DNA from: a virus | IMG/VR virus record: IMGVR_UViG_3300010883_015386 | Span: 1-39,389 of that record | Strand: one strand, 5' to 3' | DNA length: 39,389 nt | In this document: in pieces, positions 18,987 through 33,872 of the stretch | Numbering within the stretch: position 1 is the first letter of the stretch | Layout: each line of letters starts with the position of its first letter | Notes under the pieces: generated by a model | The model's database searches: none | What the model was told of the DNA's origin: nothing | Seen by the model: the letters and a program-made list of their open reading frames with translations, nothing else | Position numbers and translations under genes: made by a program

Positions 18987-19015
18987 GAAACTCTTTAGAG
19001 AGTTTTTCATATAAT
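18987..19015 (+). promoter_or_regulatory. Class I promoter overlapping a terminator-like hairpin
   Basis: GAAACT (18987-18992) and TATAAT (19010-19015) are 17 bases apart. AAACTCT-TTAG-AGAGTTT (18988-19005) forms a 7-bp hairpin followed by Ts to 19007, so the same bases could terminate the tape-measure transcript. A class II-like GTATATATAAT lies at 18972. Confidence 0.6.
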
Positions 19016-19053
19016 AATTAGTAATAAAGTTAATAACAGGTAAAGTCTATTTA

Positions 19054-21899: not shown

Positions 21900-22673
21900 A
21901 TGATTAACAACAAAAGAAATTTACAGGATGTTACGTTCGTTATACCTCTTAAATTAGATTCAGAAGATAGGAAAAGGAACTTAAGAATATGTGTAAATTT
22001 TATAGAAAGACATTTTGACACTAACATAATCGTTTGTGAAAATGATAAAGTATCTAACAAAGATTACGTAAAAACAGTATCATCAAAAATTAAATATATG
22101 TTTGATGAAGATAAGACTGGTATATTTAAGTACACAAAGATACTAAACGATATGACAAAGGAAGCAACCACTCCTATTATTGCTAATTATGATGTAGATT
22201 GTATATTCAATCCAGATGCTATACTATCTGCCGTTGAAGCGATTAGATCTAAATCTTTCGATGTAGTATTTCCATACGGTGGTCCTTTTGTAGATGTTAA
22301 ACCTAGTCAATTCCATCATATTGAAAACGATACAATTACAGATATAAATGTAAGTGAATGTCAAGTATTGCATCCACAATCATGTGGTGGCTGTATATTT
22401 TTTGATAAGCAAAAATACTATGAGGCTGGTTTAGAAAATGAAAAACAAATTTCATGGGGATTCGCAGATAACGAACGGATGGCAAGAATAAATATATTAG
22501 AATATAGAATCGGTAGAGTTCCTGGTAATTGCTATCATATGTCTCATAGCCGAGATCATAACGGTTGGTTTTCTGAACATACAAAACAAAATGAAATAGA
22601 ATTTAATAAAGTTGCAAGTATGAAAAAAGAGCAATTAAAAGAATATATAAAGACCTTTGAATGGTTAAACTAA
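21900..22673 (+). CDS. GT-A fold glycosyltransferase (family 2/galactosyltransferase-like)
   Basis: The N-terminus VTFVIPLKLDSEDRKRNL resembles the nucleotide-binding start of GT-A enzymes. NYDVDCIF carries a DVD (98-100), the metal/nucleotide-sugar binding motif. GCIFFDKQKYYEAG followed by WGFADNERMAR matches the acceptor and catalytic region of galactosyltransferase-like GT2 proteins. It probably transfers a hexose to a glycan. First gene of the sugar island. The acceptor and donor cannot be read from the sequence. Confidence 0.8.
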   Translation: MINNKRNLQDVTFVIPLKLDSEDRKRNLRICVNFIERHFDTNIIVCENDKVSNKDYVKTVSSKIKYMFDEDKTGIFKYTKILNDMTKEATTPIIANYDVDCIFNPDAILSAVEAIRSKSFDVVFPYGGPFVDVKPSQFHHIENDTITDINVSECQVLHPQSCGGCIFFDKQKYYEAGLENEKQISWGFADNERMARINILEYRIGRVPGNCYHMSHSRDHNGWFSEHTKQNEIEFNKVASMKKEQLKEYIKTFEWLN

Positions 22674-22685
22674 TACATACATAAT

Positions 22686-23282
22686 ATGCCAGTATCACAA
22701 CAACACAAGTTATTTTTTGTGCACATTCCTAAGAATGCAGGCACATCAGTAGTAGATCAATTAAATATGACACCTCCTGGACATTATCATTGGTCAGCAC
22801 ATCCAGAATTTTATGATGAAAATTTAACTAAGTTTTCTATTGTTAGAAATCCTTGGGATAGAGTAGTATCATGTTACGAATATGCAAAAATGGAAGAGAG
22901 CTACTGGCATTCATCTAAAGGTGATTCTAAAGAAGGAATGCATTTAGATTACAAATTCTTGAAAGATAAAACATTTGAAGAATGTATTAAAATACTAGCA
23001 GAACATCCACGAAGTTTAAGACATCAAGGATGGTGGCCACAATGGATGTGGATTTGTGACGATGACAAGAATCTAAAAATGGATCATGTTTTACGAATGG
23101 AAAATTTAGATGAAGAATTAAACGAACTACTAGTTAAAACCGGTAATGAACCACTAGATTTAGATAAAGTAAATACATCAACAAGAACATCGAATTATAG
23201 AGATTATTATAATGATGAGACTAGACTTTTAGTCGGAGAAATGTATAAAGATGATATTGAAATGTTTAACTATAAATTCTAA
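22686..23282 (+). CDS. Sulfotransferase (Sulfotransfer_2-like)
   Basis: HIPKNAGTSV (residues 13-22) is the loop that binds the 5'-phosphosulfate of PAPS, and FSIVRNPWDRVVSCY (50-64) is the 3'-phosphate-binding motif. The C-terminal YRDYYNDETRLLVGEMY segment is typical of carbohydrate sulfotransferases. It should transfer sulfate from PAPS, supplied by the host, onto a sugar hydroxyl. Placed between a glycosyltransferase and a fucosyltransferase, it points to a sulfated glycan. Confidence 0.88.
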   Translation: MPVSQQHKLFFVHIPKNAGTSVVDQLNMTPPGHYHWSAHPEFYDENLTKFSIVRNPWDRVVSCYEYAKMEESYWHSSKGDSKEGMHLDYKFLKDKTFEECIKILAEHPRSLRHQGWWPQWMWICDDDKNLKMDHVLRMENLDEELNELLVKTGNEPLDLDKVNTSTRTSNYRDYYNDETRLLVGEMYKDDIEMFNYKF

Positions 23283-23286
23283 ATAA

Positions 23287-24114
23287 ATGATTAAGATAGC
23301 ATTTTCATGTAATTGGGGACAATCACCAAATGACTTATTAGAAGCTTATAAAAAACAAACTCCGAACAGTTCAGGTATTTGGAATAATATAGAAGGAGTT
23401 GATGATATTGCTAAAGCAGATTATCTAATAGTTTTAAGCTCATGTGGCCAAGACTTAGAATATAATTTTCCTAAAGATAGAATAATACAATTTCGTAGAG
23501 AACCAGATTTTGTTCAACCATTTTCTCCTATGCAAGATATTAAAAGAGTTTTTGACTATAAAGATAATGGCTTTCATGTATCCACTTGGCAATTCTTATC
23601 CACTTCTCTTGATGAGATAGTAGACAAACCATATATACATAAATCAAAAAATGCAAGTACAATCTCGTCGCCGAAATGGACTCATAGGAATAAATTCTTA
23701 TATGAAGCTGCACAACAAAATCCAGGAACTATTGACATGTATGGACCAGATATTATGGAACAAGTATTTGGAGATAATTATAAGCCGTTACATCAAAAAT
23801 ATAAAAATGAAGCTATTGAAGATTATCGGTATTCTATAGCTATTGAAAATTCACAACAACAAAATTATTTTACAGAGAAGATAAATGATTGCTATTTACA
23901 TTTAACTATGCCTATTTACTGGGGATGTCCAAACATCGGTGATTATTTTCCAGAAGATTCATTTTATTTAGTAGAAATGAGTAACCCTCAAGAAATTCAA
24001 GAAATTCTAAACAAACCGATAGAAGAAAAACATATTAAAGCTTTATTAGAAGCAAGAGATTTAGTAATTAACAAATATAATATATGGCCAGTAATAGAAA
24101 AGACAATCGGATAG
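23287..24114 (+). CDS. Fucosyltransferase family GT10 (alpha-1,3-type)
   Basis: The region 180-226 (YRYSIAIENS, then YFTEKINDCY and MPIYWGCPNIGDYFP) is the donor-binding signature of GT10 fucosyltransferases, which move L-fucose from GDP-fucose onto glycans. The N-terminal half has the usual acceptor-domain pattern (FRREPDF). The C-terminus overlaps the next gene, GDP-mannose dehydratase, by 31 bases, tying donor synthesis to its use. Linkage specificity cannot be read directly. Confidence 0.88.
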   Translation: MIKIAFSCNWGQSPNDLLEAYKKQTPNSSGIWNNIEGVDDIAKADYLIVLSSCGQDLEYNFPKDRIIQFRREPDFVQPFSPMQDIKRVFDYKDNGFHVSTWQFLSTSLDEIVDKPYIHKSKNASTISSPKWTHRNKFLYEAAQQNPGTIDMYGPDIMEQVFGDNYKPLHQKYKNEAIEDYRYSIAIENSQQQNYFTEKINDCYLHLTMPIYWGCPNIGDYFPEDSFYLVEMSNPQEIQEILNKPIEEKHIKALLEARDLVINKYNIWPVIEKTIG

Positions 24115-25100
24115 AAAAGAAAAGGGCTTTAATCACAGGAATTAATGGCCAAGATGGTTCTTATCTAGCGGAATTATTAGTCGAAAAAGGATATGAAGTA
24201 TGGGGTATTCTTAAAAGAAACTCAGTAGCAGAAACTCAATCAACAAGAATAGAAACTTTACGATCTAAAAACAAACTAACTTTAGAGTATGGAGATATGT
24301 TAGATATGTCTTCTTTGTGTAGGGTTCTTCAATTGTGCAATCCTCATGAAATCTATAATTTAGCAGCCCAATCACATGTAAGAATTAGTTTTGATCAGCC
24401 TATTTACACAACGCATTCAATAGCAACCGGTACTCTTAATTTACTAGAATCTATACGTCTTATGTGCCCAGATGCTAAAATGTATCAAGCAAGTAGTTCT
24501 GAAATGTTCGGTAATAATATAGACGAAGATGGATACCAACGAGAAACAACTCCATTGAATCCAGTTAGTCCTTATGGATGTGCAAAAGTTTACGGATATA
24601 ATATATGTAGAAATTATAGAAATGCTCATCATATCTTTGTTTCTAATGGAATACTTTTTAATCACGAATCACCACGTAGAGGAACTAATTTCGTTACAAA
24701 TAAAGTATGTAAGGAAGCAGTTAGAATTTATAAAGGTCTAACAAATGAATTAAAATTAGGAAACTTAGATTCTAGTCGAGATTGGGGTCATGCTAAAGAT
24801 TATGTTTATGCAATGTGGTTAATGCTACAACATGATAAACCAGATGATTTTGTTTGTTCAACTGGAATATCACATACGGTAAAAGATTTAGTAGAATATG
24901 TTTTTAACAAACTAGAATTAAATATAGAAGAACACGTAAAACTAGATGAAAGATTTTTAAGATCTGAAGAGCTAAAATTCTTAAAGGGAGATTGCTCAAA
25001 AGCAGAAAAGGATCTAGGATGGAAACGTACATATACATTTGAATCTATGTTAGATGAAATGATTACGTATTGGTTAAATTATTATGAAGATGAAAAATAA
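24084..25100 (+). CDS. gmd: GDP-mannose 4,6-dehydratase
   Basis: This short-chain dehydrogenase makes GDP-4-keto-6-deoxymannose from GDP-mannose, the first step to GDP-fucose. It shows the NADP-binding TGINGQDGSYLAE (18-30), NLAAQSHVRISF, SSSEMFG (137-143) with the catalytic serine region, YGCAK (Y164, K168) and the diagnostic FNHESPRRGTNFVT. Length (338 aa) is slightly below bacterial Gmd. It overlaps the fucosyltransferase upstream and GDP-fucose synthase downstream (17 bases), a compact coupled cassette. Confidence 0.95.
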   Translation: MASNRKDNRIEKKRALITGINGQDGSYLAELLVEKGYEVWGILKRNSVAETQSTRIETLRSKNKLTLEYGDMLDMSSLCRVLQLCNPHEIYNLAAQSHVRISFDQPIYTTHSIATGTLNLLESIRLMCPDAKMYQASSSEMFGNNIDEDGYQRETTPLNPVSPYGCAKVYGYNICRNYRNAHHIFVSNGILFNHESPRRGTNFVTNKVCKEAVRIYKGLTNELKLGNLDSSRDWGHAKDYVYAMWLMLQHDKPDDFVCSTGISHTVKDLVEYVFNKLELNIEEHVKLDERFLRSEELKFLKGDCSKAEKDLGWKRTYTFESMLDEMITYWLNYYEDEK

Positions 25101-26025
25101 AACAATTGTTACTGGAGGAAGTGGATTAGTTGGATCACAGTTTGAAGGATCAGAAAACACTGTATTATTAAGTTCTAAATCTTATGACTTAAGAAATGTA
25201 GACGAAGTAAATAAAATGATGGATGTACATAAGCCATTAAATATAATTCATTGTGCAGCTAAGGTTGGTGGACTTGGCGCTAACATGAATTATAAAGGAG
25301 AATTTTTCTATGATAACATTATGATGAATACAAATGTTATAGAATCAGCTAGAAAGTTTGGAGTTAAAAAATTAGTTGCATTCTTATCAACTTGTGTATT
25401 TCCTAACGACGTAGAATATCCTTTAACCGAGTCAAAGATTCATTTAGGACCACCACATAATTCTAACGATGCATATGCATATGCTAAACGTATGGCAGAA
25501 GTTCAAATACGAGCGTATAGAGAACAATATGGTTTGAACTATACCGGAGTTATACCTACAAATATATATGGACCTAATGATAACTTTGATTTAGAAAATG
25601 GCCATGTAATACCTTCGTTAATTCACAAATGTTATATTGCAAGAGAAACAAAATCTCCATTCAAAATATGGGGTTCTGGAAAACCTTTACGAGAATTTAT
25701 ATTTAGTAAAGACGTTGCAAAACTAACAGAATGGATAATAGAAAATTATGAAGGAGAGGATCCAATTATATTATCAACATCTAAAGAACATTCAATAAAA
25801 TTTGTAGTTGAAACTATTATAGATTTAATGAATTTCAAAGGTGAAGTAATATGGGAAGATGATAAACCTGATGGACAGTTTAGAAAACCTAGTGATAACT
25901 CAAAAATAAAATCTTTACTTCCGGATTTTGAATTTACTAATTTATATGATGGTCTTAAAGAAACTATTGAATGGTTTGAGGCAAACGTCGATCATATACG
26001 AGGAAGAATATATATTAAACAATAA
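25084..26025 (+). CDS. fcl: GDP-L-fucose synthase
   Basis: This epimerase-reductase completes GDP-L-fucose synthesis. Visible motifs are the Rossmann TGGSGLVGS (10-18), AAKVGGLGANM, FLSTCVFP, YAYAKRM (catalytic Tyr-Lys), PTNIYGPNDNFD, GHVIPSLIHK and WGSGKPLREFI, all diagnostic of Fcl/WcaG. At 313 aa it matches the family. It overlaps gmd by 17 bases. Confidence 0.95.
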   Translation: MKMKNKTIVTGGSGLVGSQFEGSENTVLLSSKSYDLRNVDEVNKMMDVHKPLNIIHCAAKVGGLGANMNYKGEFFYDNIMMNTNVIESARKFGVKKLVAFLSTCVFPNDVEYPLTESKIHLGPPHNSNDAYAYAKRMAEVQIRAYREQYGLNYTGVIPTNIYGPNDNFDLENGHVIPSLIHKCYIARETKSPFKIWGSGKPLREFIFSKDVAKLTEWIIENYEGEDPIILSTSKEHSIKFVVETIIDLMNFKGEVIWEDDKPDGQFRKPSDNSKIKSLLPDFEFTNLYDGLKETIEWFEANVDHIRGRIYIKQ

Positions 26026-26031
26026 TTAAAT

Positions 26032-26673
26032 ATGGAAAATACAAACAAATTTTATAGCCAATATCAACAAGATAAATGGTTATTTGACAAATACTTTAGT
26101 AATAAAAAAGACGGAGTATTTATTGAGATCGGTGCCGATGATGGTGTTCAATATAGCAATACTTTATTTTATGAAAACTTAGGATGGACTGGACTTTGTA
26201 TAGAGCCAAGCCCAGCAAGATATTTAGAGTTAACATCTAATAGAAAATGTTTAACCGAAAACGTAGCTCTTTCTGATTATAAAGGAACTACAGAATTTAC
26301 TGATATATCAGGATATGGTAGAGGATTGAGTGGACTAACAGAAGATTACGACCAACAACATAAGAATAGAATAAGTCAAGAAATTCAAAACCCTGCATGC
26401 GGTGGAAGTTATTTAGTAGATGTTAACGTAGATTTACTAACAAATGTTTTAGAAAAACATAAACTATACGATATAGATTTTTGCTCATTGGATACTGAAG
26501 GTTCTGAATATAAAATACTACGTAAATTTGATTTTGATAAATTCAATATACGAGTATTCCTCATTGAAGATAATCAATATGGCAATATCGAAAGTATAAA
26601 TGAATTGCTAGAATCTAATGGTTATCGATTTGTTGAAACCGTAGGTATAGATAATGTTTATATTAAAGAATAA
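26032..26673 (+). CDS. FkbM-family methyltransferase
   Basis: The N-terminal YSQYQQDKWLFDKYF and the SAM-binding FIEIGADDG (30-38), followed by CIEPSPARY and CSLDTEGSEYKIL, are those of FkbM-type methyltransferases, which often O-methylate sugars. Its location directly after the GDP-fucose genes suggests that it methylates a sugar of the same glycan. The start at 26032 follows the fcl stop by six bases. Confidence 0.85.
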   Translation: MENTNKFYSQYQQDKWLFDKYFSNKKDGVFIEIGADDGVQYSNTLFYENLGWTGLCIEPSPARYLELTSNRKCLTENVALSDYKGTTEFTDISGYGRGLSGLTEDYDQQHKNRISQEIQNPACGGSYLVDVNVDLLTNVLEKHKLYDIDFCSLDTEGSEYKILRKFDFDKFNIRVFLIEDNQYGNIESINELLESNGYRFVETVGIDNVYIKE

Positions 26674-26676
26674 ATT

Positions 26677-27504
26677 ATGAACAATAGAGTAAATTTAACG
26701 ACATCGTGTAGGGATTGCGATACTTTACCGAAGCACGATAAAGCAGGTATTATAGAAACTACAAATAATACTAAATATCAATATATGCATAATGGCCTTA
26801 AGATAAAATGGGATACTTATCATTCACCATGGATGAACACCATAATATCTAAGCTTAAGGGACATCACGAACCACAGGAAGAATTATGCTTTTATCATAT
26901 TTTAGAAACTATGCCAGAAAAGGCAAATATGATAGAACTTGGTTGCCATTGGGCTTACTATTCTATGTGGTTTAACAAAAAGATTAAAGATTCATATAAC
27001 TTATGTATGGAACCTGTTAGAGAAAACTTAGATGGTGGTATTGCAAATAGCAAACTTAATGAATGTGAAAATATGGAATTCATACAAGGTTGTGTTACGG
27101 AAGTATTTAGACCAGATATGGAATTTACTAATTGGGATAATAAAAAATATAAAATGCCTGGATATCCATTACAAAAATTAATGGAGGACCGAGATATATT
27201 TGTAGATGTTGTACATTCTGATATTCAAGGAGCTGAATCTCATTTACTTAAAAAATCAATTCCAGTTTTACCAAAGATTGGATATTTCATTATATCAACT
27301 CACGGAGGAGTACATCCATATTGCCAAAGCTTTTTGGAAGATAATAATTTTCAAATACTAGTACAACATAGCGTAAATGAATCTTATTCTGGTGATGGAT
27401 TGATTGTAGCAATAAATAAATTACATATCAATAAGTACGAAGAAAATATCGACGAAGATCTTATTTCATACTTCCATAAAAATTGCAAAATATCCAAAAA
27501 ATAG
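26677..27504 (+). CDS. Class I SAM-dependent methyltransferase (FkbM-like, divergent)
   Basis: MIELGCHWAYYSMWF (85-99) is a class I methyltransferase motif I, followed by NLCMEPVREN, and HSDIQGAESHLL resembles the D-x-x-G-x-E motif of FkbM enzymes. The N-terminus has CRDCDTLPKHDKAG (C11, C14), a conserved-looking cysteine pair. It probably acts on a sugar in the same pathway as the preceding methyltransferase. It closes the glycan island just before a class I promoter. Confidence 0.78.
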   Translation: MNNRVNLTTSCRDCDTLPKHDKAGIIETTNNTKYQYMHNGLKIKWDTYHSPWMNTIISKLKGHHEPQEELCFYHILETMPEKANMIELGCHWAYYSMWFNKKIKDSYNLCMEPVRENLDGGIANSKLNECENMEFIQGCVTEVFRPDMEFTNWDNKKYKMPGYPLQKLMEDRDIFVDVVHSDIQGAESHLLKKSIPVLPKIGYFIISTHGGVHPYCQSFLEDNNFQILVQHSVNESYSGDGLIVAINKLHINKYEENIDEDLISYFHKNCKISKK

Positions 27505-27506
27505 TT

Positions 27507-27535
27507 GAAACTTTTATACAAGTACCTCATATAAT
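27507..27535 (+). promoter_or_regulatory. Class I promoter (upstream of Ro60-like gene)
   Basis: GAAACT (27507-27512) and TATAAT (27530-27535) are 17 bases apart in GAAACTTTTA-N11-CATATAATA. A transcript starting near 27542 would begin just before the structured element at 27552. Confidence 0.7.
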
Positions 27536-27551
27536 AATAATGAATAACTCT

Positions 27552-27624
27552 TAATTAAATTGAACGAATACATACAGCAAACCACTATTTAACTATAATA
27601 AAAATAGTATTCCGAATTTAATTA
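27552..27624 (+). ncRNA. Structured 5' RNA element A, Y RNA-like candidate or leader
   Basis: Helix 1 pairs 27552-27561 with 27615-27624 (10 bp). After an asymmetric loop, GAATAC (27566-27571) pairs with GTATTC (27607-27612), and TATTT (27586-27590) pairs with AAATA (27602-27606). Between helices the strand ATACAGCAAACCAC is left as a bulge. Fifteen bases, TACAGCAAACCACTA, recur in the element after the gene. It may be a leader that regulates the Ro60-like gene, or a separate small RNA. Confidence 0.5.
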
Positions 27625-27640
27625 TTAAAAACCTAACACA

Positions 27641-29065
27641 ATGAGCAACCTCGTAAAAGCAACACTTACTAAAGATAACCAAACCGATAACGGAATGGCT
27701 ACTCATTCTACTAGCTTTAACAAATGCTTAGATTTATTCTTTATAGCAGGTAGTTCACGGAATATGAACAAAACTGATATAGAACAACTCTTTGTAGGTG
27801 CCTATGCAGAAAACTCAGAATTGGCACTCAAAATTTTATTTTGGGCAAGAGATATACGAGGTGGTGCTGGTGAAAGAAGGTTCTTTAGAATATGTACAAC
27901 ATGGTTATCTGACTATGATCCAAAGACAATGACTAAACTTTCGACGTTAGTTCCGGAATATGGAAGATACGATGATCTATTTTATTGCAACAAACAAGAT
28001 GCTATTCAGATAATTAAAAACGCGTTACAGGCGGGAGATTCTCTTTGCGCAAAATGGATGCCAAGAAAAGGAATCTTTGCAAACATAATTAGAAAATCTT
28101 TAGGCCTAACACCAAAAGAATATAGAAAACTTATTGTTAACTTAACTAACGTGGTTGAACAAAAACTATGTGCTAAAGAATTTGATAAAATAGAATATAA
28201 GAAAGTACCTTCAAAAGCCTTTGCAAAGTATCACAGAGCCTTTACAAAAAATGATGAATCTAGGTTTACCGCATTTTTATCTGACGTTAAGGAAGGTAAA
28301 GAAAAAATCAATGCAGGAGCCATATTTCCACATGATATTATAAGACCATACTTGCATGGTGAAGAATCTAGCGATGCGATAACAGAGCAATGGAACGCAC
28401 TTCCTAATTATATGGAAGGATCTAATGAAAGATTACTTCCTGTTTGTGATACCAGCGGTTCTATGGATGGAACTCCATTAGAAGTTTCAGTTTCTTTAGG
28501 ATTGTATATTTCAGAAAGGAATGAAGGAATTTTCAAAGATGCTTTTGTAACGTTCTCGCAATCTCCTAAAATGCAATATCTTAAAGGTAATGTTTATGAA
28601 AGAACTAAACAATTATCAAGAGCCGATTGGGATATGAATACAAATATAGAGGCTACCTTCAAAATGCTTCTAAATAATGCGGTCTCTATGGATTTAGATG
28701 AAGAAGAAATGCCTACAAAATTACTCATCATTTCTGATATGGAATTTGATGCAGCAATCGATAGTAACTCTGGATGGAGCGAAGAGCATACTCCTGAATG
28801 GAATTCAACAGCGTTACAATTGATGAAAGACCTATATAATAAAGCTGGTTTTGAAATGCCAGGAGTTATATTTTGGAATGTGAATGGAAGATCAGGTAAT
28901 GTTCCTTCAAAAGCTGATACTGAAAATACTGCATTAGTAAGTGGATTCAGTCCTTCAATTCTTAAATCAATACTTAACGGTGAAATAGAACATCCTGAAC
29001 AAATAATGTTAGATACAATAAATTCAGAAAGATACAATCCAATAAGCGATAAATTAAAAGTATAA
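27641..29065 (+). CDS. DUF2828/Ro60-like protein with von Willebrand A domain
   Basis: The 474-aa protein has an alpha-helical N-terminal half with the DUF2828 pattern (ILFWARDIRGGAGERRFF, VPEYGRYDDL, AKWMPRK, then LTPKEYRKL and KVPSKAFAKYHRAF). The C-terminal vWA domain has the MIDAS motif VCDTSGSM (D270) and LLIISDMEFD. A helical-repeat region plus C-terminal vWA is the layout of Ro60/TROVE RNA-binding proteins, which hold noncoding Y RNAs. That relationship is inference. The gene has its own class I promoter and is flanked by two related RNA elements, which makes an RNP plausible. Confidence 0.8.
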   Translation: MSNLVKATLTKDNQTDNGMATHSTSFNKCLDLFFIAGSSRNMNKTDIEQLFVGAYAENSELALKILFWARDIRGGAGERRFFRICTTWLSDYDPKTMTKLSTLVPEYGRYDDLFYCNKQDAIQIIKNALQAGDSLCAKWMPRKGIFANIIRKSLGLTPKEYRKLIVNLTNVVEQKLCAKEFDKIEYKKVPSKAFAKYHRAFTKNDESRFTAFLSDVKEGKEKINAGAIFPHDIIRPYLHGEESSDAITEQWNALPNYMEGSNERLLPVCDTSGSMDGTPLEVSVSLGLYISERNEGIFKDAFVTFSQSPKMQYLKGNVYERTKQLSRADWDMNTNIEATFKMLLNNAVSMDLDEEEMPTKLLIISDMEFDAAIDSNSGWSEEHTPEWNSTALQLMKDLYNKAGFEMPGVIFWNVNGRSGNVPSKADTENTALVSGFSPSILKSILNGEIEHPEQIMLDTINSERYNPISDKLKV

Positions 29066-29146
29066 GTTTCCTCAAAGAATGATTACAGCAAACCACTACA
29101 GAAATCAATTCAGAAATCAACCCTCTCATTCTGTTGGAAACTTTTT
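29066..29146 (+). ncRNA. Structured 3' RNA element B, terminator-like, paired with element A
   Basis: Immediately after the stop, GTTTCC (29066-29071) pairs with GGAAAC (29136-29141), and AGAATGA (29076-29082) pairs with TCATTCT (29126-29132). The next bases, TTACAGCAAACCACTA (29083-29098), repeat element A. A direct repeat, CAGAAATCAA, occurs twice in the loop (29099 and 29111). Ts at 29142-29146 make it terminator-like. It could be a 3' end, a processed small RNA, or both. Confidence 0.5.
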
Positions 29147-29165
29147 ATACTTTAATTCATATAAT
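29137..29165 (+). promoter_or_regulatory. Class I promoter overlapping element B
   Basis: GAAACT (29137-29142) and TATAAT (29160-29165) are 17 bases apart. The -35 box and the following Ts are also the 3' arm and T-tract of the element B hairpin. Confidence 0.7.
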
Positions 29166-29186
29166 ATCTAAATAAACACATTAAAT

Positions 29187-30035
29187 ATGACTAAAATTCT
29201 TGTAACCGGTGGCTGTGGTTTCGTTGGTACCAATCTTATTAAATATCTTCTGGAATTAGGTCACAATGATATCGTTTGTTTAGATAATTATTTTACTGGC
29301 ACCAAATCAAATCATATTGATGGTGTAGAATACATTGAAGGATCTACTTGTGATGCAAAAGAATTATTAAAAGATTATACATTCGATGTTGTTTATCACT
29401 TCGGAGAGTACTCTAGAATTGTGCAATCATTTAAGGATATTGAAATTGTACAAAAATCTATTCTTAGCGGAACTCCTATTATTTTAGATCTATGTCGTAA
29501 ATGGAATGCAAAACTAATTTATTCAGCGTCATCATCTAAATTTGGTAATAATGGAAAAGATGAAAACCTTTCTCCATACGCTTGGATGAAATCAAAAATG
29601 GTAGAACTTATTAAGAACTATCATCAATGGTACAATTTAGAATACGAGATATGTTATTTCTTTAACGTATATGGACCTGGTCAAATATCAAGTGGTGAAT
29701 ATGCAACGGTTATAGGTATATTTGAACAACAACGTAACGATGGAAAAAAATGTACGGTAGTATCTCCAGGAAATCAAAGCCGAGATTTTACACACGTACA
29801 AGATGTTGTTGAAGGTGTTTATTTAACAACTTTCATCGATGCAAATCATGAATGGCATTTAAGATCAGGCATTAATCGAACTTTAATTGAAGTTGCAGAT
29901 ATGTTCGGAGATTGGAAATTTATACCAGAAAGACAAGGAGAAAGATTTACTAGCGAGTATTTTGAATCTGATACCGAAACGAGATTAGGATGGAAACCTA
30001 AAAAAACCTTACAAAAGTGGATAAATACTTTGTAA
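29187..30035 (+). CDS. NAD-dependent epimerase/dehydratase (UDP-hexose epimerase-like)
   Basis: This extended short-chain dehydrogenase has the Rossmann motif TGGCGFVGTN (7-16), VCLDNYFTG after strand 2, SASSSKFGN, SPYAWMKSKM (catalytic Y and K), NVYGPGQ and SRDFTHVQDVV, all typical of UDP-glucose 4-epimerase or UDP-glucuronate decarboxylase relatives. At 282 aa it is shorter than GalE. HFGEYSRIVQSF, where HLAA is usual, is a variant. It likely converts a nucleotide sugar, but the exact substrate is open. Own class I promoter. Confidence 0.82.
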   Translation: MTKILVTGGCGFVGTNLIKYLLELGHNDIVCLDNYFTGTKSNHIDGVEYIEGSTCDAKELLKDYTFDVVYHFGEYSRIVQSFKDIEIVQKSILSGTPIILDLCRKWNAKLIYSASSSKFGNNGKDENLSPYAWMKSKMVELIKNYHQWYNLEYEICYFFNVYGPGQISSGEYATVIGIFEQQRNDGKKCTVVSPGNQSRDFTHVQDVVEGVYLTTFIDANHEWHLRSGINRTLIEVADMFGDWKFIPERQGERFTSEYFESDTETRLGWKPKKTLQKWINTL

Positions 30036-30050
30036 TATATAACTAAATTT

Positions 30051-30080
30051 GAAACTAAAACAATTTTTTAATCATATAAC
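30051..30080 (+). promoter_or_regulatory. Class I-type promoter with 18-bp spacing
   Basis: GAAACT (30051-30056) precedes TATAAC (30075-30080) by 18 bases within ATCATATAACTAAATAAA. A class II-like AATATATAACTAAATT lies just upstream (about 30034-30049). Confidence 0.45.
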
Positions 30081-30095
30081 TAAATAAAAATTAAC

Positions 30096-30704
30096 ATGAG
30101 CGAAACAAACACAAAAGTAATTAAAATGAATACAGAACCAAACGGTCCTAATTCGGACAATCCCGTAGAATTAAAAAACGAGATAACAGTAGAAGGTATT
30201 GATGAAAACAATCAGAAAGCCTTAATAGTCGAAGCGCAAATTGCAAAATTGCAAGAAGATCTAGCAAAACGTAAATATAGAGTAAAAACATCAAGTGATT
30301 GTGTTTCTTACTTAATGAACGAATTCTATCCAAACGTAGAATGGACAGGATATGAGTGTTACGCAATATCTGAAACTTATAAAGATTTGAAAAAATCTAC
30401 AGATAAAGCTAAAGTATCTAAAACCGGAAAAGTTGGTTTTACTATGAGACCTGAATTATTGGAAGCGATCTTTCACTTTATTAAAAAGCAACCAGGAAAA
30501 GGACTTACTCTAGCGATCAAGCATAGAGAATTAGCAGAAGACTTCTCAATTGCAATGGCTGCAATGAATACAGATAGACAAGAGTTAAGAGATTTAGCGA
30601 TGGAAGCTGAAGCTGCTAAACACGGAATTTCTGTTGACGATTACCAAAGACTAGCTGAAGAAAACGCTCCAGTAAATGGTGCAGCGATGAAAATGCCTAG
30701 ATAA
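30096..30704 (+). CDS. Hypothetical helical protein (202 aa)
   Basis: After a charged, asparagine-rich N-terminus, a coiled-coil-like helix (IVEAQIAKLQEDLAKRKY) leads to a globular part with SSDCVSYLMNEFYPNVEW and helices rich in alanine and glutamate. No membrane segment and no known motif. It is followed by a strong intrinsic terminator and preceded by its own promoter, so it is a single-gene unit that may be expressed at a high level. Confidence 0.65.
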   Translation: MSETNTKVIKMNTEPNGPNSDNPVELKNEITVEGIDENNQKALIVEAQIAKLQEDLAKRKYRVKTSSDCVSYLMNEFYPNVEWTGYECYAISETYKDLKKSTDKAKVSKTGKVGFTMRPELLEAIFHFIKKQPGKGLTLAIKHRELAEDFSIAMAAMNTDRQELRDLAMEAEAAKHGISVDDYQRLAEENAPVNGAAMKMPR

Positions 30705-30712
30705 CTTATAAA

Positions 30713-30752
30713 GAGGAGCTACTTTACTAAATCATAGTAGCTCCTCCTTTTT
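30713..30752 (+). terminator. Intrinsic terminator
   Basis: GAGGAGCTACT (30713-30723) pairs perfectly with AGTAGCTCCTC (30736-30746) around a 12-base loop, followed by CTTTTT. Confidence 0.9.
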
Positions 30753-30773
30753 AACTAAAAATACAAGTAAGCA

Positions 30774-31058
30774 ATGGAGAAAATTATTAAATATGTAATT
30801 CCTACAATGGCTTTCTTTTTACTATTATGTTTCTTTCAAACATGTGGTACTAAAGGAAAGATAACCGATGTTAAAAAACAAAACATAGAATTACATAATA
30901 CAGTAGATTCTCTTCATAATGTTATCAATACGTTACCAACTTCAGATGAGGTTGAATATAGAATGGAACAAGTAATGTATAGGTATTTAATTTATGAAGA
31001 TGATTTAGATAGAGGAAAAGTAAGTCTATCGGAGATTAAGAATCGAATAGATGAGTAA
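30774..31058 (+). CDS. N-terminally anchored coiled-coil protein (inner-membrane spanin-like candidate)
   Basis: This 94-aa protein has one N-terminal membrane segment (residues about 8-23, VIPTMAFFLLLCFFQT) and then a charged, periodic helical region. FFQTCG is not a good lipobox, so it is more likely an uncleaved anchor than a lipoprotein. One membrane anchor plus a periplasmic coiled coil is the plan of i-spanins, which act in lysis, but no o-spanin was identified. It overlaps the next gene by eight bases. Confidence 0.55.
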   Translation: MEKIIKYVIPTMAFFLLLCFFQTCGTKGKITDVKKQNIELHNTVDSLHNVINTLPTSDEVEYRMEQVMYRYLIYEDDLDRGKVSLSEIKNRIDE

Positions 31059-31404
31059 TTGGAACGGTCTTATATGGGGAATAGTTTTATTAGCTTTAGG
31101 ACAATCACTTATTTGGATTCAAACAAACGGACAGTTCGTATGGAAGTGGGTAGATAAAAATCCACTTATCATGTCTATCGGTTTAGGTATACCAATTTCA
31201 TATATGTTTATCAAAGCTACTCGATACGTTGTAGATCATTTTGATGGTTCTTTATGGCCATCAAGATTTATAGGATTTGCAATTGGTATATTTACTTTTA
31301 CTTTATTGACATACTTCTTTAAGGGTGAAGGAATAAATTATAAGACAGCTACTTGTCTATTATTAGCTTTATCAATAATATCAATACAACTATTTTGGAA
31401 ATAA
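31051..31404 (+). CDS. Multi-pass membrane protein (117 aa, about four spans)
   Basis: Four hydrophobic segments are visible: LIWGIVLLALGQSLIWI, LIMSIGLGIPISYMF, FIGFAIGIFTFTLLTYF and ATCLLLALSIISIQLFW. No family was recognised. It starts inside the preceding gene and its end overlaps the reading frame of the dTDP-glucose dehydratase, so the three genes are tightly coupled. A role in the membrane at lysis or superinfection exclusion is possible but not shown. Confidence 0.65.
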   Translation: MSNWNGLIWGIVLLALGQSLIWIQTNGQFVWKWVDKNPLIMSIGLGIPISYMFIKATRYVVDHFDGSLWPSRFIGFAIGIFTFTLLTYFFKGEGINYKTATCLLLALSIISIQLFWK

Positions 31405-32378
31405 AAAAGAAAATCTTAATAACAGGAGAATCAGGATTTATTGGTTCGCATGTAATAACACATTTTTGTAAAACATATCCAACCTATGATATTCATGGTT
31501 TGGACTCTTTAACATATGCATCAGATAAAGAAAATACCGATTGGCTATTAGAAAAGCCTAACTATAATTTTCATAAAGTTGATATTAGAGATAGAGGTTC
31601 TATTTTAGAACTTTTTGATAAAGAAAGATTTACTGATGTTATACATTTAGCAGCAGAATCTCATGTAGATAATTCTATAGAGAATCCATTGATATTTGCA
31701 GAAACAAATGTTTTAGGTACTCTTAATTTATTAGATGCCTTTAGAAAATACTCAAAGGGAAGATTTCATCACGTTTCAACGGATGAGGTTTATGGAGATT
31801 TAAGTATGGAGGATCCTGCGTTTCAAGAAACAACACCATACGATCCAAGCTCTCCATACTCTGCATCAAAGGCTGCATCAGATCATTTTGTGAGAGCATA
31901 TCACAGAACGTTTGGTTTAGATATTACTATAACTAATTGTTCTAATAATTATGGACCGCATCAACATTCTGAAAAATTCATACCAACTGTTATTAGATCT
32001 ATAATGGATAATCAAAAGATTCCTATCTATGGTGAAGGAAAAAATGTTAGAGATTGGTTATACGTAGAAGATCACGCAAACGCAATTGATACAGTATTTC
32101 ATAAAGGAGTAAGCGGAGAAACTTATAATGTAGGTGGAAATTGTGAAATGACAAATATAGATATTGTATACACAATCTGTGAAATTATGTTAGAGAAAAA
32201 ACTTCATAAAAATCCTTTGCAATTAGTTTCGTTTGTAAAAGATCGTGCTGGTCATGATTTTAGATATGCAATAGATCCTACTAAATTATATGAAGAATTA
32301 AATTGGAAAGCTGATAAAAATATGTTTAGAGTATACCTTGCTAAAACTATTAACTGGTATTCACAAATATATAAATAA
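31395..32378 (+). CDS. rfbB: dTDP-glucose 4,6-dehydratase, non-ATG start
   Basis: Motifs are diagnostic of RmlB: ILITGESGFIGSHV (7-20), HGLDSLTYASDKEN, HLAAESHVDNS, STDEVYGDL (128-136), SPYSASKA with Y155 and K159, NNYGPHQHSEKFIP and GEGKNVRDWLYVEDH. It converts dTDP-glucose to dTDP-4-keto-6-deoxyglucose. No ATG precedes the Rossmann strand. TTG 31395, ten bases before the upstream stop, gives a normal N-terminus (MEIKKKILITG), while TTG 31353 would extend further back. No RmlA, RmlC or RmlD gene lies in the window, so the product depends on other genes. Confidence 0.92.
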   Translation: MEIKKKILITGESGFIGSHVITHFCKTYPTYDIHGLDSLTYASDKENTDWLLEKPNYNFHKVDIRDRGSILELFDKERFTDVIHLAAESHVDNSIENPLIFAETNVLGTLNLLDAFRKYSKGRFHHVSTDEVYGDLSMEDPAFQETTPYDPSSPYSASKAASDHFVRAYHRTFGLDITITNCSNNYGPHQHSEKFIPTVIRSIMDNQKIPIYGEGKNVRDWLYVEDHANAIDTVFHKGVSGETYNVGGNCEMTNIDIVYTICEIMLEKKLHKNPLQLVSFVKDRAGHDFRYAIDPTKLYEELNWKADKNMFRVYLAKTINWYSQIYK

Positions 32379-33825: not shown

Positions 33826-33853
33826 AAACTTTTTATAATCAATAACATATAAT
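33825..33853 (+). promoter_or_regulatory. Class I promoter
   Basis: GAAACT (33825-33830) and TATAAT (33848-33853) are 17 bases apart in GAAACTTTTT-N11-CATATAATA. It precedes the small gene at 33873. Confidence 0.65.
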
Positions 33854-33872
33854 AACTAAACTATAATTAAAC

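Follow-up and report, generated by a model that had tools for sequence, protein, structure and literature searches.

Two copies of a candidate Ro60-associated RNA element flank a predicted Ro60-like (DUF2828) gene in a T4-like phage

In a 39,389-nt stretch of phage DNA (IMG/VR record IMGVR_UViG_3300010883_015386; hereafter the window, in which all positions are counted), a gene encoding a DUF2828/vWA protein is preceded and followed by two related RNA elements on the + strand (Table 1). The window is a fragment of a T4-like phage, with a large terminase that shares 34-43% identity over most of its length with those of uncultured huge phages, Sphingomonas phage PAU and Tenacibaculum phages, and with clamp-loader and further T4-type genes. 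An original prediction, made from the letters of this DNA, had described the protein as Ro60-like and the elements as related RNA structures with covarying stems, and we followed it up by comparison with homologous loci.

Table 1. Coordinates of the gene, the two RNA elements and the associated features in the window.
Feature	Position	Strand	Basis
Ro60-like gene (DUF2828 + DUF7788/vWA, 474 aa)	27641..29065	+	Pfam, PHROG, AlphaFold, fold match, MIDAS
RNA element 1 (diverged), within the 5' leader	27565..27614	+	sequence, fold, Rfam
15-base motif, copy 1	27573..27587	+	sequence
RNA element 2, canonical copy, begins 10 nt past the stop codon	29075..29134	+	sequence, Rfam
15-base motif, copy 2	29084..29098	+	sequence
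Outer helix of element 1 (27553-27561 / 27615-27623)	27553..27623	+	predicted fold
Outer helix of element 2 (29066-29071 / 29136-29141), then T run	29066..29146	+	predicted fold, sequence
Promoter-like repeat AAACTTTTATAC..TCATATAATA, upstream of element 1	27508..27536	+	sequence
Promoter-like repeat, second copy, ahead of the next gene (29187)	29138..29166	+	repeat comparison

The protein matched the Pfam profiles PF25043 (1.4e-46) and PF11443 (5.4e-38), with DUF2828 and DUF7788 as the only Pfam families found, and the PHROG family phrog_850, annotated 'RNA-binding protein' (2e-140). The TROVE profile PF05731 had no match in the record, and a sequence search of the PDB returned no significant TROVE relative, so that a fold search was required. 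An AlphaFold model built from a 39-sequence alignment reached a predicted local distance difference test score (pLDDT) of 89, and its top whole-chain match in the PDB was Xenopus Ro60 (1yvr; Z-score 20.6, 395 residues aligned), together with RNA-bound Ro60 (1yvp, Z 20.4), human Ro60 complexes (Z 17-20), the Ro60 of Thermus phage phiLo (9l5y, Z 13.6) and Deinococcus radiodurans Rsr (2nvo, Z 12.1). Proteins with a vWA domain only scored about 10, well under the leading Ro60 rows. The DxSxS signature of the metal ion-dependent adhesion site (MIDAS) in the vWA domain is intact as DTSGSM at residue 270, and D270, S272 and S274 are invariant in the 39 homologues. These results indicated that, in the predicted model, the DUF2828/DUF7788 protein is Ro60-like at the fold level over its whole length, as had been proposed.

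The 15-base sequence TACAGCAAACCACTA occurs exactly twice in the window, once before and once after the gene, and each copy follows the 5' strand of the stem originally described for it. In element 1, GAATAC (27566-27571) pairs with GTATTC (27607-27612), ACAGCAA lies at 27574-27580 and G27614 stands after the 3' strand; in element 2, AGAATGA (29076-29082) pairs with TCATTCT (29126-29132), ACAGCAA lies at 29085-29091, and the ends are AAG at the start and CUGU at 29131-29134. The reported paired changes were likewise confirmed, since in the shared register two of the six pairs differ on both strands (A-U to G-C and C-G to A-U). Taken alone, this two-element observation is weak, because the window holds 24 repeated 15-mers, some of them overlapping, so that repetition by itself is not rare, and because the folding energies are modest (z -2.3 and -0.6, with element 2 unremarkable). 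Together with the T run that ends the outer helix of element 2, these points would fit a chance repeat lying in two AT-rich hairpins, the second of them merely a terminator. Exact matches to the 15-mer in IMG/VR (n = 23) were also inspected; none had the gene or the stem close by, and they look like chance. The weight of the observation comes instead from homologous loci.

We assembled DUF2828 loci from IMG/VR, GTDB genomes and named phages, comprising 48 viral and 73 bacterial or archaeal (genome) loci after removal of redundancy. With no motif supplied, ACAGCAA ranked first among enriched 7-mers in both sets of 600-nt flanks, with 52 occurrences against 3.9 expected at the viral loci and 138 against 13 at the genome loci, and the enrichment was strand-specific, as the opposite strand carried just 3 and 8 copies, respectively. 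An exact 7-bp stem was found around CAGCAA at 62% of viral and 68% of genome sites, compared with 4-5% of other positions in the same flanks. A stem test with a stricter register (offset 1-2) underestimated pairing, and wider-register and held-out tests were used; in the latter, the 3' strand was located by its outer four bases and the G, and the inner three pairs were then scored, which avoids circularity. All three held-out pairs formed in 35 of 38 viral (92%) and 108 of 115 genome elements (94%), compared with 7-8% of controls, and the viral pairs included all four Watson-Crick types at each position. G followed the 3' strand in 50/50 viral elements and in 96% of 133 genome elements, in a test that had made no use of this base for selection. 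The family pattern is thus (A)AG, a 7-bp stem, NNA, CAGCAA, a variable loop, the 3' strand and a near-invariant G. Since MAFFT alignment of whole elements misaligned the 3' strands, we relied on held-out pairing and on existing Rfam models, with no covariance model of our own.

At least one element lay within 800 nt of the gene at 41 of the 48 viral and 65 of the 73 genome loci, compared with 9/48 and 23/73 in a loose reverse-strand control. Conservation of motif and stem near homologous genes, on which the original prediction had been staked, was therefore strong at viral and bacterial loci alike. Next to homologous genes, the motif, the pairing, its register and the G behind it are found again in phages of many hosts, in bacteria and in a Woesearchaeota assembly, and the held-out pairing test refutes mere coincidence, to which we give next to no credence. 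Judged by sequence comparison, the elements belong to one RNA family with a covarying stem and a linkage to the DUF2828 gene.

Carriers of the element beside the gene include phages of Mycobacterium, Escherichia (Felixounavirus), Staphylococcus, Campylobacter, Enterococcus, Rhizobium, Klebsiella and Listeria, and, among cellular genomes, Bacillota, Chloroflexi and one Woesearchaeota assembly. The elements are often arrayed, two to seven together, upstream of the DUF2828 gene. Among the classical TROVE loci, a set of 10 only, five ACAGCAA copies were found and none was stemmed; in this small sample, the stemmed motif appears to go with the DUF2828 type only. A second conserved stretch, TACAGCAAAAAGTAC..CTATGA, was seen about 60 nt past the first hairpin, with no clear stem, at loci L053, L058, L063-L070 and similar ones.

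Copies far from the gene lie between tRNA genes in KVP40, in a 735-kb phage and in another viral genome. These positions, and the tRNA-like loops of several elements, would suit RNAs that serve as tRNA decoys or sensors in RNA repair, either occupying anticodon nucleases or holding cleaved tRNAs for ligases; so would the rtcB homologue found within the locus at 27 of the 73 bacterial loci and the RNA ligases near the Ro-like gene in the Listeria phage. The window fits such a role poorly, since its elements carry no tRNA-like part, no tRNA gene was found in it, and the neighbourhood of the Ro-like gene (21900-32378) consists of sugar-nucleotide epimerase/dehydratase and methyltransferase genes, not tRNA or RNA ligase genes. 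We regard a role in RNA repair as possible but doubtful. In a Chloroflexi contig (L114:80-4686), the DUF2828 gene itself lies within an array of 23 tRNA genes.

Long copies of the element in Enterococcus, Klebsiella and Mycobacterium phages matched the Rfam family YrlA (RF02553) with E-values of 5.5e-7 to 2e-3, at scores of up to 45 bits in the related phages against a gathering score of 69. These copies contain a T-arm, an acceptor hairpin and a D-arm in this order, that is, a circularly permuted tRNA, and their open end is the CAGCAA stem. The presence of permuted-tRNA copies beside the same gene family might suggest that the window elements are degenerate YrlA RNAs which have lost the tRNA-like module and are bound in the manner of the Y RNAs of D. 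radiodurans Rsr. However, the YrlA model aligns to the tRNA-like part of the phage copies and not to their ACAGCAA end, the consensus Ro stem of YrlA being GGCGAA; the ten classical TROVE loci lack a stemmed ACAGCAA; and the short form is the prevailing one in many phages unrelated to each other, which leaves no need to postulate a loss here. Derivation from YrlA thus seems distinctly improbable. The window elements themselves had no tRNA, YrlA or T-loop match. The proposed link with Y RNAs accordingly holds for the long copies, which carry the YrlA tRNA-like module, whereas the short form is closest to another RNA, described below.

Two other arrangements of tRNA-like sequence were observed. 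Three tRNA-like genes upstream of DUF2828 in Oscillospiraceae/Clostridiaceae (L127:1786-1901, 2407-2521 and 2736-2856; also L156) scored 48-56 bits against the Rfam tRNA model and have canonical acceptor, D and T arms with the anticodon arm swapped for an ACAGCAA insert, making them non-permuted tRNA/Ro-hairpin hybrids. At L142:2651-2748 and L143:2528-2591, a tRNA-like body that is not permuted, with D, anticodon and T arms, forms the loop and is closed by the CAGCAA stem in place of a full acceptor stem.

Of the RNAs described so far, Dictyostelium Class I RNA is nearest to the short form. These RNAs are 42-65 nt long, occur in many copies, and have a short end-joining stem kept by compensatory change, an 11-nt motif that immediately follows the 5' strand and ends in UUACAGCAA, a variable middle, an AAG start and a CUGU end; their reported partner is Rnp1A, a protein with two RNA recognition motifs, and they are described as having no relatives outside Dictyostelia (Kjellin et al. 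2021, PMC7919456). They have been regarded as a novelty of the dictyostelids connected with multicellular life, and are further marked by a promoter of their own, the eukaryotic DUSE, and by an abundant free transcript. Against the Rfam model RF01414, element 2 scored 27.4 bits, with an E-value of 0.0014 when 141 nt were searched with all of Rfam and 0.019 in 1.9 kb, and element 1 scored 17.0 bits, with an E-value of 8.1 alone and 0.039 within the record. The best phage copy, in the 735-kb phage, reached 37.1 bits (E 2e-4 in 6 kb), and neither it nor the window elements attained the gathering score of 41.5. Over 23 phage and viral records, RF01414 gave 15 matches at E < 0.01, about ten of them in the flanks of DUF2828 genes; four of the other five were inspected and were CAGCAA hairpins with the following G. 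Over 20 whole bacterial genomes, matches were mostly at chance level, with 7 of 14 control genomes also matching at E ≤ 1, and the bacterial and archaeal genome scan gave one good match, upstream of the Woesearchaeota gene.

Each window element matched 9 of the 11 positions of the motif as it stands in the RF01414 model (CCUUACAGCAA); the viral consensus is CTTACAGCAA, from which element 1 deviates at the near-invariant third base. Element 2 carries all the sequence features of Class I RNAs named above, element 1 lacks both ends, and the end-joining stem is, as in Class I RNAs, conserved in structure and not in sequence. The window elements and Class I RNAs share one anatomy, and homology between them is plausible but unproven; we do not file the elements as Class I RNAs because the curated cut-off was not reached. 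With slightly more doubt than conviction, we propose that Class I RNAs are the eukaryotic branch of a prokaryotic and phage family that is Y-RNA-like and acts by binding a Ro60-like (DUF2828) protein. In the literature searched, we found no paper linking Class I RNAs with Y RNAs, and none on Ro60 in Thermus phage.

Expression data from a related locus come from Listeria phage CKA15, in which three very abundant non-coding transcripts arise up to 2 kb upstream of the homologue CKA15_055; they are preceded by TTGAC/TATAMT promoters and were suspected to be Y RNAs, with their identity left open and no motif or structure named (PMC12282133). In the CKA15 record, these 2 kb hold three non-coding gaps, each opening with such a promoter, and the gap directly upstream of the Ro-like gene contains exactly three elements behind a TTGACA..TATCAT promoter. 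This gap is likely one of the three abundant transcript regions, which is not proven because the sole published coordinates fall in a different, motif-free gap. The other two gaps, 26143-26800 and 26876-27212 (L225), have strong TTGAC promoters and no ACAGCAA motif, and the former contains the most abundant non-coding transcript of that study (PMC12282133).

In the window, the Ro60-like gene and both elements are bracketed by two copies of a promoter-like repeat. Related copies also lie at 33826-33854 and 18988-19016, with none expected in shuffled sequence; the repeat, with consensus AAACTTTTTATA-N-CATATAATA, stands ahead of genes and is probably a phage promoter class. The outer helices and 4-nt left loop that had also been reported were present in the predicted folds of both elements, but the outer helix was not clearly above shuffled sequence, being paired in 40% of viral flanks against 24% when shuffled and in 29% against 22% for bacterial flanks, and was rejected as a conserved feature. 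The outer helix of element 2 may be a transcript terminator; a terminator scan, whose rules admit short loops only, did not flag it.

Considering that both copies apparently lie on one transcript between promoter-like repeats, the hairpins might be cis-acting mRNA sites only, with the protein binding both ends of its message to repress or stabilise it and no free small RNA being made. In KVP40 (L032:2466-2505), a weak CAGCAA hairpin with a 6-bp stem spans the translation start of the Ro-like gene, Shine-Dalgarno sequence and start codon included, in keeping with such control. Elsewhere, however, the elements form arrays of up to seven, lie far off in tRNA arrays or stand behind their own promoter, and the tRNA-like modules of the long copies would be superfluous in a repressor site. 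An exclusively cis-acting role is therefore unlikely. A phage ribonucleoprotein or autoregulation had been offered as explanations; the overall reading was supported, and autoregulation is just one option and can be dispensed with, given the further copies that stand in trans within tRNA arrays.

Several observations weigh against the view that the elements are RNA partners of the protein. Seven of the 48 viral loci, including that of the close relative L028, have no element nearby; the window elements fall under the curated cut-off of every Rfam family; element 1 lacks the AAG and CUGU ends and its outermost pair, C27565/C27613, is mismatched; and the one abundant CKA15 region that has been located (26,236-26,727; PMC12282133) is a motif-free gap. 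Weighing these points against the family evidence, we consider it likely that the two elements, as members of one RNA family, partner the Ro60-like protein of the DUF2828 type encoded between them, either as small RNAs or as copies borne on mRNA. Their binding to the protein, their processing and their function are inferred.

In this partnership, the fixed part of the family would consist of NNACAGCAA, the short stem that closes onto it and a CUG(U) end, and the Ro60-like protein would hold the stem and CAGCAA in the way that the lower stem of Y RNAs is held by Ro60. The variable loop would be the effector part, a tRNA-like module in the long copies and short in the window, where its possible roles would be limited to those of a gate, scaffold or stabiliser. 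The gene's own transcript would carry both window copies, with element 1 in its leader and element 2 shortly past the stop codon, near the likely transcript end. Element 2, with its ends intact, would probably be released as an RNA of about 60 nt, and the diverged element 1 may let the protein sense its own level in a feedback control, for which the weak KVP40 element over the start codon offers a parallel.

These findings suggest that an RNA-protein partnership of the Ro60/Y-RNA kind is widespread and little described. The DUF2828 family, with 682 phage records in one collection and many bacterial members, would gain a fold-level identity and a candidate RNA ligand, and at least one abundant, unexplained RNA of Listeria P100-like phages would gain a candidate identity. 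The literatures on bacterial Y RNAs and on Dictyostelium Class I RNAs, between which there was no cross-citation in the papers searched, would be joined, and what Class I RNAs bind becomes a directly testable question.

Compared with known systems, the predicted protein resembles Ro60/Rsr (1yvr, 2nvo and 9l5y) in its whole fold, a helical part and a vWA domain with MIDAS, and differs in having 12-16% identity, no TROVE profile match and another RNA motif. YrlA, the bacterial Y RNA reportedly described by Chen et al. 2014, likewise adjoins a Ro60-like gene and has the T-arm, acceptor and D-arm module in common with the long copies, whereas its partner is a TROVE protein instead of DUF2828, its Rfam consensus Ro stem takes the place of ACAGCAA after a 7-bp stem, and the window copies lack the tRNA-like module. 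The putative Y RNAs of CKA15 are similar in their abundance as non-coding transcripts and in their place shortly ahead of a homologous gene. Class I RNA stands closest to the short form, ahead of classical Y RNA; differences are a stem with one base fewer ahead of the motif and, in the phage and prokaryotic family, the position beside a Ro60-like gene.
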